DNA of 64,000 nt from an uncultured Pseudomonadota bacterium (lineage in GTDB: Bacteria > Pseudomonadota > Gammaproteobacteria > Steroidobacterales > Steroidobacteraceae), in assembly GCA_937920275.1 (NCBI GenBank), contig CALGVD010000018.1, positions 1-64,000 on the forward strand, read 5' to 3'. A program made the translations under genes and the position numbers. Every line of letters begins with the position of its first letter. The stretch's first letter is position 1. Below are positions 9,003 to 12,486 of this stretch, piece by piece. Under the pieces are notes generated by a model. That model did no database searches and had not been told where the DNA came from. It worked only from the letters and a program-made list of their open reading frames with translations.

Positions 9003-10664
9003 ATGTCTGCGCCCGCTCCCACCCTCGTCCCCGTGTTGCGCGATCTGGCTGCGACCCCGTTCGAGGCACAGGTCATCGCAGCGCTGCCGGTGGACGCAGA
9101 CGACGACCCAACGCCGCGTGCGGTGCCCGGTGTGTCGCTCAGCCGAGCAAGGCCGACGCCGGTCGTGTCGCCGCAGCTGCTCGCGTGGTCGGACGCCTTG
9201 GGCGAGGAACTGGGACTCGCGCGACCGGCTCCGGGCAGCGCGGCGCTCGCGATACTCGCGGGCAACGCCCTGGCGCCCGGCATGCAGCCCTATGCCGCCC
9301 GCTACGGCGGTCATCAGTTCGGCCGTTGGGCAGGGCAACTCGGTGACGGTCGGGCCATCACACTCGGCGAATTGCCAAGTCCGATGGGTGACGGCGCGGG
9401 CGCGACCGCCTACGAGCTGCAGCTCAAGGGCGCTGGGATGACCCCTTATTCACGCCATGCCGATGGCCGGGCGGTGCTGCGATCGAGCCTGCGCGAGTTC
9501 GTGTGCAGCGAAGCGATGCACGCGCTCGGGGTGCCGACCACACGGGCGTTGAGTCTGGTCGGAACCGGTGAGGCGGTGCTGCGCGACATGTTCTACGACG
9601 GCAATGCCCGCACCGAGCCCGGGGCGATCGTCTGCCGGGTGGCGCCGACCTTCCTGCGTTTCGGCAACTACGAGATCCACGCTGCATTCGGCGAGCGGGA
9701 ATCTTTGCAAAGATTGGTAGCACACACCTTGCGTCGGCACTATCCGCACATCGACGCGAGCGACCCGGCCGCACCGCTGCACTGGCTCAGCGAGGTCTGT
9801 GAGCGGACCGCGGTCATGGTCGCGCATTGGATGCGGGTCGGATTCGTCCATGGGGTGATGAACACCGACAACATGTCGATCCTCGGCTTGACGCTCGATT
9901 ACGGTCCGTACGGCTTCCTCGAGGGCTACGATCCGCAGTGGACACCGAACACCACCGATGCGGCCGGTCGGCGCTATGCCTATGGTCAGCAGCCACAGAT
10001 CGCCCTTTGGAACCTGTCACGGCTCGCGGGGGCGTTGCGGCCGTTGGTCGACGGAGACGACGGATTACATGCGGCGCTCGAGCGCTACCGCGATGTCTTC
10101 GGTCGTGCCCATCGGACGATGTCGGCCGCCAAACTCGGACTCGGATCCTTGGCGGAGCCGGGTGATGTCGAGTGGCTCGATGAGTTGTACGGTCTGCTCG
10201 CAGCCACCGAGACCGACATGCCGATCTTCTTCCGTCAGCTATCCGCGTTGGTGCCGGGCGTTGGTGCGGCCTCGGCTCGGGGTGATGACGCCGCGCTGCT
10301 CGCGCCGGTGCGGGCGGCGCTCTACGATCCTGACACGCTTGATGCTGCGCTCGCGGCGCGGTGGCGACAGTGGCTGTCGCGCTGGCAGCGACGGATCACC
10401 CACGACCTCACACACGAGAAGTCATCCGCAGAACTGATCGTGGCCCGTATGGATGCGGTCAATCCGCTCTACCTGCCCCGTAACTATCTTGCGCAAGAGG
10501 CGATCGATGCAGCGGAGCAGGGCGATCTCGCGCCGCTCCAAGCGCTGATGCGGGTGCTGCAGCGCCCATACGCGGCGCAAGCCGGCTGCGAGGCGTACGC
10601 CGCACGACGACCCGAATGGGCTCGCCAGCGACCGGGGTGTTCTGCGCTCTCCTGCAGCTCTTGA
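9003..10664 (+). CDS. selO: Protein adenylyltransferase SelO (YdiU family)
   Basis: SelO is a pseudokinase-fold enzyme that binds ATP upside-down and transfers AMP to Ser, Thr or Tyr of target proteins, with a role in redox homeostasis. The 553-residue protein carries the family blocks in order: RYGGHQFGRWAGQLGDGRA, ELQLKGAGMTPYSR, DGRAVLRSSLREF, VAPTFLRFGNYE, GFVHGVMNTDNMSILG and LDYGPYGFLEGYDP. The NTDN and DYGP aspartates are the metal and catalytic residues in characterised members. The C terminus reads GCSALSCSS: a cysteine stands where eukaryotic SelO has selenocysteine, and it is thought to form a regulatory disulfide. Length is a little above E. coli YdiU. The following cobalamin riboswitch begins a new transcription unit. 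Confidence 0.95.
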   Translation: MSAPAPTLVPVLRDLAATPFEAQVIAALPVDADDDPTPRAVPGVSLSRARPTPVVSPQLLAWSDALGEELGLARPAPGSAALAILAGNALAPGMQPYAARYGGHQFGRWAGQLGDGRAITLGELPSPMGDGAGATAYELQLKGAGMTPYSRHADGRAVLRSSLREFVCSEAMHALGVPTTRALSLVGTGEAVLRDMFYDGNARTEPGAIVCRVAPTFLRFGNYEIHAAFGERESLQRLVAHTLRRHYPHIDASDPAAPLHWLSEVCERTAVMVAHWMRVGFVHGVMNTDNMSILGLTLDYGPYGFLEGYDPQWTPNTTDAAGRRYAYGQQPQIALWNLSRLAGALRPLVDGDDGLHAALERYRDVFGRAHRTMSAAKLGLGSLAEPGDVEWLDELYGLLAATETDMPIFFRQLSALVPGVGAASARGDDAALLAPVRAALYDPDTLDAALAARWRQWLSRWQRRITHDLTHEKSSAELIVARMDAVNPLYLPRNYLAQEAIDAAEQGDLAPLQALMRVLQRPYAAQAGCEAYAARRPEWARQRPGCSALSCSS

Positions 10665-10718
10665 CCCGCGCAAGTGTTCTGCGGGGCGTGATTGACGCAC
10701 CGCGTGCTCGTCGGTAGA

Positions 10719-10931
10719 GTCACAGGCGTTGGTGAGGTGCCTGTGTCGGATCCTCCGAAGCAGGTGAAACGGGAAGTCGGTGAGTGGCCTTGCGCCACGA
10801 TTCCGGCACTGCCCCCGCAACGGTAAGCGAGGCAGGGCGATATCAAAGCCACTGCGGCCTAGAGGCCGTGGGAAGGCGTCGCCCGGTGGATGACCACCCT
10901 CGCGAGTCCGGAGACCGGCCTCTCCTCCAGA
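10719..10931 (+). promoter_or_regulatory. Cobalamin (B12) riboswitch aptamer
   Basis: The segment shows the conserved string of the AdoCbl-type riboswitch. An outer stem (CACAGGC at 10721 pairing with GCCTGTG at 10739) is followed by GTGAAACGGGAA near 10764, GGCACTGCCCCCGCAAC near 10805, the B12 box GCCACTG at 10848-10854, GGGAAGGC at 10870-10877 and AGTCCGGAGACCGGCC at 10905-10920. Spacing and order match the class closely. It lies in the 497-bp gap after selO and faces the membrane-protein gene at 11162, which it most likely represses when cobalamin is plentiful. Aptamer ends are approximate. Confidence 0.95.
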
Positions 10932-11073
10932 CATGTCGCGCACGGGTGGATTGCGCGGGGAGGTCGTCGGTGTCGAACATCCTTCGCCCCTTCAAGCAGC
11001 CGGTCATCCGGGCTGCGGACCTGTGCCCGTCGCAGCCGTCGGCGGCTCTGGGCGTATCCACCCCGACACATTC

Positions 11074-11120
11074 GATCGCCGTCCTGCGGCGATCCCTGTA
11101 GGCCCGGCAGCGGACCGGGC
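11074..11120 (+). promoter_or_regulatory. Two hairpins between riboswitch and start codon (possible expression platform)
   Basis: GATCGCCG (11074-11081) pairs with CGGCGATC (11087-11094) around a 5-base loop. GCCCGG (11102-11107) pairs with CCGGGC (11115-11120) and is followed by ATGTTTTC. The second could be a weak intrinsic terminator in the riboswitch expression platform; the T-run has only four bases, so control at translation is equally possible. The ribosome-binding site GAGGGA lies downstream at 11145-11150 and is outside both stems. Confidence 0.45.
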
Positions 11121-11161
11121 ATGTTTTCACGATACGTTTTCAACGAGGGAGTCCGACCAAG

Positions 11162-11713
11162 ATGATCCGAAGCGACAAGAATTTTTGGGCTCTGGCGCTT
11201 GCGCTGGGGTTGGTGATGTTCGTGACCCGCGTGGGTCACTTCGGCGAGTACGGCGGTCCGCCGGACGCGTCTTGGGCCGTGTTCTTCTTGGCGGGCCTCT
11301 GGTTGCGGGACGCGCGGATGTTCCCGGCGTTCTTCGCGCTCGGGTGGGGCGCCGATCTTGCCGCGTTCTCGCTCGGCACGCCGAACCTCGCGTTCTCCCC
11401 CGCGTACCTCTTCCTTCTTCCCGCCTACGGTGCGTTGTGGGCCGCAGGCCAGTGGGTGGCGTCCCGTGCTGAGCACCGCCTGCCACGCGTGGCGGCAGCG
11501 GTACTGGGGTCGGCAGCCGTCGCTTTCACGGTCGCCAATCTGGGGATGTATCTGATGGCCCCGCCCGCGGCTTCGACGGGGCTCGGGTCTTTCGCCGCGC
11601 AGGTGGCGGGCTGGTTCCCCGGATATCTCTTGACGATGTCGGTCTATGTGGCGTCAGGGCTTCTGATCGCCGCTCTGCTTTCGGTCCGTCGCTCGGCGCT
11701 CGCCCAGCGCTGA
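11162..11713 (+). CDS. Putative B12-regulated membrane importer, BtuM-like
   Basis: A 183-residue, very hydrophobic protein with about six membrane segments, directly under a cobalamin riboswitch. Size, topology, the PDASWAVFFLAGL segment in the second helix region and the FSPAYLFLLPAYGALW segment around residues 78-93 resemble BtuM, a solitary S-component-type vitamin B12 transporter of Gram-negative bacteria. If correct, it moves cobalamin across the inner membrane without an ABC partner. In characterised BtuM a conserved cysteine (about residue 80) binds the cobalt ion; this protein has no cysteine anywhere, and Ala77 stands just before FSPAY where I would expect it. The start is backed by GAGGGA 11 bases upstream. 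A B12-regulated cobalt transporter is the main alternative. The regulation is firm; the transport role is inferred. Confidence 0.65.
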   Translation: MIRSDKNFWALALALGLVMFVTRVGHFGEYGGPPDASWAVFFLAGLWLRDARMFPAFFALGWGADLAAFSLGTPNLAFSPAYLFLLPAYGALWAAGQWVASRAEHRLPRVAAAVLGSAAVAFTVANLGMYLMAPPAASTGLGSFAAQVAGWFPGYLLTMSVYVASGLLIAALLSVRRSALAQR

Positions 11714-11733
11714 CACGGCCCTTGAATCTGCCC

Positions 11734-11761
11734 GGGCTCCAGTCGAGATCGACTGGAGCCC
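11734..11761. terminator. Long perfect hairpin between convergent genes
   Basis: GGGCTCCAGTCGA (11734-11746) is the exact reverse complement of TCGACTGGAGCCC (11749-11761), two bases apart. It sits between the stops of the BtuM-like gene and the oppositely oriented TorF-family gene, where a bidirectional terminator is expected. There is no T-run on either side, so it may instead block 3' exonucleases or depend on Rho. Confidence 0.5.
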
Positions 11762-11781
11762 GCGGCGAGACGCTTAAGCGA

Positions 11782-12486
11782 TCACCAAGGCAGGGTGGTC
11801 GCGACCGTGAATTGGATCTTGCCTTCTGAGGTGAACACATCACCCGGTGTTCCGTCGGTCTCGCTCAGATCGCTGCCGTCGATCCACTTCAAGGCGAGCG
11901 CGAAATTGCCCAGCGACTTCGTCACGCCGATCGAGTAATCGAGGTAGCCGTCCCCGTAGGCGTCATCCCAGTAATCGCCGTCGCTACGGCCGACATGCAG
12001 GACGAGACTGAAATCGTTCGGCAACGGAAGCTCCGCGTTGACTTCCATGTAGGTCGCGCTCAAGCCCGTGTTGCTGAAGTCGTCCGCGTACCAGAACTTG
12101 CCGGATATGGCCTTGTAGGACACGCCGGCGTAGAACTCACCGAAGTCGACCTTGTCGCCGCCCGGGTTGAAGTTGTACTGGACATAGCCGATGTCGAAGC
12201 CGCCGTCCTCACCGATGGACCCGCGGTAACCACCGAGCAGGTCCCACTCGAGATCGGACTTGGTGTCGGGTCCGAAATCGACATTGCTGACCCAAGCGCC
12301 GAGGTAGAACCCTGACTCGCTCTCCCAGTCGAGGCTCGCTTGCAGCGCAGGGTCGCGTGCCGTCTGGGTGATGCCGCGGAAATCGTAATCGGAGGCGAGA
12401 GTGAGCGTCGAACTGATCTCCGCCTGCGCGATCGATGCCGATCCGATGGCGAATGCGAGCGCGGCAAGTGGGGCTGGGTGTTTCAT
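11782..12486 (-). CDS. TorF-family outer-membrane protein
   Basis: A 234-residue protein with a clear signal peptide (MKHPAPLAALAFAIGS, cleavage after AQA) followed by alternating beta-strands rich in Tyr, Trp, Gly and Asp and ending in the aromatic-terminated TLPW, typical of an outer-membrane beta-barrel. The start of the mature protein, EISSTLTLASDYDFRGITQT, and the repeated strand pattern match the TorF (Gcw_chp) family of putative porins. The solute is unknown. It stands alone, convergent with the B12-regulated gene; upstream lie 176 bp of non-coding sequence shared with the divergent nuclease gene. Confidence 0.82.
   Translation of the reverse strand: MKHPAPLAALAFAIGSASIAQAEISSTLTLASDYDFRGITQTARDPALQASLDWESESGFYLGAWVSNVDFGPDTKSDLEWDLLGGYRGSIGEDGGFDIGYVQYNFNPGGDKVDFGEFYAGVSYKAISGKFWYADDFSNTGLSATYMEVNAELPLPNDFSLVLHVGRSDGDYWDDAYGDGYLDYSIGVTKSLGNFALALKWIDGSDLSETDGTPGDVFTSEGKIQFTVATTLPW

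Follow-up and report, generated by a model that had tools for sequence, protein, structure and literature searches.

The window, a stretch of 64,000 nucleotides, carries a short unit made of a promoter-like sequence, a cobalamin riboswitch and a single gene for a membrane protein of the BtuM type, which faces a convergent porin gene. The features are as follows.

10692..10720, plus strand: sigma-70-like promoter (TTGACG, 17 nt, TAGAGT), immediately 5′ of the riboswitch, from a consensus scan.
10718..10937, plus strand: cobalamin riboswitch aptamer (RF00174), from cmscan (108.8 bits, model positions 1-189 of 189).
11102..11120, plus strand: stretch that may act as the intrinsic terminator of the expression platform (GCCCGG stem and T-run), from a pattern scan.
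11145..11151, plus strand: GAGGGAG, probably the ribosome binding site, 10 nt 5′ of the start codon, from reading of the sequence.
11162..11713, plus strand: BtuM-type membrane protein gene (btuM), an open reading frame of 183 aa with an ATG start and no Cys codon.
11390..11392, plus strand: codon 77 of btuM, GCG (Ala), at the site of the cobalt-ligating Cys80 of the BtuM of Thiobacillus denitrificans (BtuM_Td), from alignments.
11733..11762, no strand: inverted repeat of 14 nt without mismatch, in the gap that separates btuM from the convergent torF, from a repeat search.
11782-12486, minus strand, convergent with btuM: TorF-family porin gene (torF), from a family search.

The initial annotation called the riboswitch unmistakable, and the covariance model bears this out, since the match spans the full model (E = 2.5e-26) and scores far above the gathering cutoff of 31.5. 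The window has no other Rfam match, and the whole 2.7-Mb genome (G000, a draft of 137 contigs that is 99.75% complete) has no other RF00174 match. Orthologous riboswitches lie at the equivalent position in two sister genomes, G296 (UBA964) and G146. The riboswitch and its leader, which comprises 224 nt between the riboswitch and the btuM start region, show a mean identity of 97% among the three sisters, and the GAGGGAG site is identical in all three. The promoter hexamers, which are unchanged across the same genomes, match 9 of 12 consensus positions, with one occurrence found against 0.1 expected, a consensus match and not proof of a promoter. The terminator-like stem does not rise above chance: it is mostly retained among the sisters, but the pattern occurs once where 1.4 occurrences are expected by chance, and the folding of positions 11060-11175 is not more stable than that of shuffled sequences (z = 0.11). 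An expression platform for the riboswitch is only weakly supported.

btuM is the only gene behind the riboswitch, as first proposed, because the next gene, torF, is on the opposite strand. The inverted repeat between the two is likely to form their shared transcript end. Upstream, the gene at 9003-10664, which we take to be selO, has a conserved position in the sister genomes. The window torF shares 84.6% identity with its counterpart in G263, a more distant genome, about the same as with those of its own sisters (83-84%), and the changes found only in G000 peak in torF (58 in 500 nt). This pattern suggests that recombination may have occurred next to btuM. The same contig of G000 (C18) carries both the riboswitch-btuM unit and, about 3 kb past the end of the window (L199, 7149-10643), a gene for a B12 enzyme, the fused isobutyryl-CoA mutase IcmF.

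Sequence searches with the window protein matched one protein in the PDB, represented by entries 8c7p and 8ovv, whose titles describe BtuM with cyano- and hydroxocobalamin. The phmmer match to 8c7p covers residues 10-173 (E = 3.1e-15), and a profile built from the family alignment matches BtuM_Td over positions 3-183 of 190 (E = 6.8e-63), so that the homology extends over the whole protein. The AlphaFold2 model (pLDDT 90.7, pTM 0.89) has seven helical segments, six of membrane-spanning length and a short one at 141-149, and adopts the six-helix fold of S-components. It superimposes on the BtuM structures with Z scores of 21.0 (8ovv) and 20.8 (8c7p), at 2.4-2.6 Å over 174 residues; when BtuM and S-component entries are considered, the next S-component after BtuM reaches a Z score of 11.9. 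The S-components of ECF transporters (RibU, FolT, ThiT and BioY) share the overall fold (Z 9.4-11.9). In contrast with the window protein, they require EcfT and ATPases, and they gave no sequence match. The six-helix, BtuM-like protein of the initial annotation was thus recovered, with BtuM far above the other S-components. Pfam-A, NCBIfam and PHROGs assigned no family to the window protein; neither Pfam-A nor NCBIfam has a model covering the BtuM family, and no family recurred among the 65 alignment members scanned. The identity of the protein therefore rests on BtuM_Td and on the fold and, judged by profile and model, it belongs to the BtuM family by descent.

The protein contains no cysteine at all, as had been noticed, and the residue that is absent is the cobalt ligand. 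The BtuM_Td motif SDFCVSPAY aligns with PNLAFSPAY in the window protein, placing Ala77 at the position of Cys80. We accordingly classify it as a cysteine-less BtuM derivative and not with the biochemically characterized BtuM, of which this cysteine is said to be the defining feature. To place this substitution, we collected relatives from the order (25 of 296 genomes with a match), the genus (23 of 24) and a sample of the class (40 of 369). From the named genome collection came the 80 best of 296 relatives, through a scan in which the peptide DASWAVF[FW] had to be present. BtuM is carried by 148 of the 149 loci examined; with 16 further places without a locus from the class, they gave 136 distinct aligned sequences. 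The Cys80 column holds Cys in 134 of them and Ala in two, a count that holds for these samples and leaves cysteine-less BtuMs outside them possible. As all 134 others keep the cysteine, its loss is rarer than the initial annotation could know. The two Ala sequences come from different species of one genus, the window species and UBA964. A candidate in G238 (L025, E = 7e-4) lacked the motif and was dropped from the profile census. Plasmids yielded three distant relatives and no more. Six genomes of the class sample (G319, G581, G345, G459, G570 and G642) have two BtuM genes each, and all 12 copies have the cysteine. A search of the open-access literature found no natural cysteine-less BtuM.

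Cys80 of BtuM_Td ligates the cobalt and, in the published account, is described as invariably conserved and shown to be essential in BtuM_Td (PMC6072759). The C80A and C80S variants are reported there neither to bind or co-purify with cobalamin nor to decyanate it, and they still bind cobinamide, with a Kd of 5.6 μM for C80S versus about 0.6 μM. C80S abolished growth support, and the H28A, Y85L and R153A variants retained cobalamin binding (PMC6072759). Rempel et al. (2018) suggested that the cysteine drives the change of cobalamin from base-on to base-off (PMC6072759). By its sequence, the window protein is the natural counterpart of C80A. The initial annotation proposed that it may bind cobalamin in another state or carry precursors such as cobinamide, and the published behavior of C80A would fit such a role. 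It resembles BtuM_Td in length, S-component fold, link to B12 and solitary occurrence without an ECF module, and the pocket residues His28, Asp67 and Tyr85 correspond to its His26, Asp65 and Tyr82. Asp65 and Tyr82 are kept in 118 of 118 other sequences each, and His26 in 103 of the 114 others aligned there. Besides the cysteine, the two proteins differ at Arg153, which is Gln147 in the window protein, a variable site with Arg in 43 of 118 distinct relatives; moreover, no btuR is found among the named neighbors here. We found no compensating residue in the Ala forms, as Ala77 is the sole residue common to both and absent from the 118 others. There is no replacement ligand in the loop 75-82 and no new His, Met or Cys near it.

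The closest comparison is with the cysteine-bearing BtuM of G146 (L002/L043, CAMAQZ010000023.1), which is 93% identical (12 of 183 residues differ), lies upstream of torF and has the same riboswitch and leader, but has Cys77, Tyr78 and Ile86. The records of L043 and of L056 (CAMCBU010000007.1) are metagenome-assembled genomes titled Klebsiella pneumoniae; the contigs are those of this uncultured Steroidobacteraceae-like genus, and the label looks wrong. The BtuM of UBA964 (L028/L042, DBCG01000063.1) is 95% identical, also lacks cysteine and shares the riboswitch and the synteny, with Ala in place of Pro80 of the window protein. Codon 77 is GCG in the window, GCC in UBA964 and TGC in G146, and codons 77-85 contain 4 base differences between the two Ala alleles, so that the Ala state is not of very recent origin.

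How the two states arose was addressed with trees. For the flanking genes, approximately unbiased (AU) tests favored a grouping of G000 with G146 (0.891), did not reject G146 with G296 (0.131) and rejected G000 with G296 (0.0099). In contrast, the btuM tree leans toward G000 with G296, although the flanking-gene tree is not rejected on btuM (AU 0.086). A single loss of the cysteine on a clean tree is unsupported, given these different topologies. Around codon 77, nine of the changes found only in G146 fall within 48 nt, a cluster with a permutation p of 0.025. As the Ala and Cys states fit the flanking genes poorly, this cluster makes a small recombined tract around codon 77 likely, on a modest signal. 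One possibility, on an equally modest signal, is that the cysteine was lost in a common ancestor and regained in G146.

The window genome encodes several B12-dependent proteins, namely MetH, methylmalonyl-CoA mutase, IcmF and an MtgC-like corrinoid protein. No FecCD (BtuC-type) permease was found in any of the six genus genomes searched, and no EcfT (PF02361) in G000, G296, G146 or G263. btuM is therefore the one candidate importer found in G000, and it would act without an ECF module in the sense that this genome shows no module for it to act with. An EcfT-type protein occurs together with BtuM in G184 and G073 (L208, L209), an exception to the usual absence of ECF modules from genomes with BtuM. 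btuM lies directly 3′ of the riboswitch in G000, G146 and G296, and a gene for a BtuB-like receptor stands between the two in G263, G073, G184 and G201.

The explanation that we favor, with somewhat more confidence than doubt, is that this gene encodes a solitary corrinoid importer descended from BtuM, which would work without cobalt-sulfur ligation, would not decyanate its cargo and would prefer base-off corrinoids to base-on cobalamin. With the cobalt-binding Cys replaced by Ala, the ring would have to be held without a cobalt-sulfur bond, and cysteine-based decyanation would be impossible. When B12 is low, the riboswitch would permit btuM expression, and the product would sit in the inner membrane as an S-component fold that requires no ECF module. 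A corrinoid arriving from the periplasm would be held by shape and by the kept His26, Asp65 and Tyr82, and would reach MetH and the mutases in the cytoplasm by the toppling movement that Rempel et al. propose for facilitated diffusion through BtuM (PMC6072759). The preferred cargo would be incomplete corrinoids, or cobamides such as pseudocobalamin whose lower ligand binds weakly. For a natural counterpart of C80A, a variant that binds cobinamide but not cobalamin, the simplest functional reading would be an importer of corrinoids that are base-off from the outset, and in our analysis a base-off cobamide appears at least as likely a cargo as cobinamide. Pseudocobalamin is readily base-off. According to a review, it is made by most cyanobacteria (PMC8123684). 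It would fit as the cargo of a lake bacterium, a habitat suggested by the isolate names of relatives of the window bacterium. Several observations speak against this explanation. The loss of growth support in C80S indicates that a cysteine-less BtuM might not work on cobalamin, the loop provides no replacement ligand, and the search of G000 for a BtuB orthologue gave none (best match 34%, 4e-17). In addition, G146, with nearly the same protein and the cysteine, shows no obvious difference in its B12-binding enzymes.

That last observation would suit an unchanged cargo, ordinary cobalamin, which we regard as a possible but doubtful alternative. Other changes in the pocket would then hold the base-on form, or the base-off form would be held with a water molecule or His26 in the axial position; the cysteine would have been one route to affinity among others. 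The small number of differences between the window and G146 proteins is in line with this idea, as is the tolerance of the BtuM_Td pocket to the H28A, Y85L and R153A changes. Nevertheless, the reported absence of co-purified cobalamin in both Cys80 variants argues against it, and neither a new potential ligand near the loop nor any residue other than Ala77 sets the two Ala forms apart from their 118 relatives.

It may also be that the protein imports cobinamide or other incomplete corrinoids to feed a salvage pathway, which we consider unlikely. Cobinamide is useful only to cells with the late assembly enzymes, and CobS is needed for its use. The binding of cobinamide by C80A would agree with such a role, and so would the gene content of UBA964, where a second riboswitch unit reads, in full, btuB-cobT-cobS-cobC, where the end of btuB and cobT overlap. 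The search of G000 gave no CobS, which disfavors cobinamide as the cargo there, although the region may be an assembly gap; CobS is present in 5 of the 24 genus genomes. A second cobalamin riboswitch heads btuB and cobS both in UBA964 (L198, 590-4836) and in the cysteine-bearing G146 (L197, 10090-13800). We therefore rejected the idea that the loss of the cysteine tracks the salvage genes, as CobS occurs with either state. A 19-kb stretch of the G146 btuB contig has no close match in G000: there are six matches, the best at 69%, and beyond them an 82% match across 60 bases of the riboswitch. As this stretch is absent as a block, the missing btuB and cobS of G000 fit a deletion or an assembly gap alike.

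Less likely still is a decaying gene, in which the Ala-type importer has lost some or all of its activity, is in the course of being lost and keeps its riboswitch by inheritance. The effect of C80S on growth support would be compatible with decay, and the BtuB and CobS orthologues not found in G000 might belong to a more extensive loss. However, 30 synonymous changes against 11 nonsynonymous ones separate the window and UBA964 btuM genes (dN/dS 0.116), in the range of four other adjacent genes of the same genome pair (0.08-0.24). By an arithmetic estimate, neutral evolution at a dS of 0.24 over roughly 400 nonsynonymous sites would have given about 80 nonsynonymous changes. The btuM of the Ala species is thus under purifying selection. 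The reading frame, ribosome site and riboswitch are intact in both Ala species, their alleles have had time to diverge around codon 77, and G000 retains B12 enzymes with no other importer found in searches for BtuC-type permeases and EcfT. The low dN/dS and the different Ala codons of the two species also make the last alternative, an error of sequencing or assembly, negligible: both Ala genomes are draft assemblies, but they are separate ones, and the difference between TGC and GCG is of three bases within one codon, with the frame intact.

If the Ala form is indeed an importer of base-off corrinoids, a broader scenario can be proposed, which we put forward tentatively and as improbable rather than probable. 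The lineage may have switched its sole B12 importer from cobalt-sulfur ligation to binding with no protein ligand on the cobalt, moving in fresh water from cobalamin with dimethylbenzimidazole to base-off cobamides such as the pseudocobalamin of cyanobacteria, and recombination in the loop might toggle specificity between sisters. A natural, riboswitch-controlled form of BtuM without the cysteine, present in two species and accompanied by a 93% identical sister that has it, would be a natural case of transport uncoupled from decyanation. Swapping this single residue could ask what the cobalt-sulfur bond is for and would test the need for the cysteine. Should the Ala form turn out to prefer base-off cobamides, the identity of a single residue would tell which relatives of B12 a microbe can take up.
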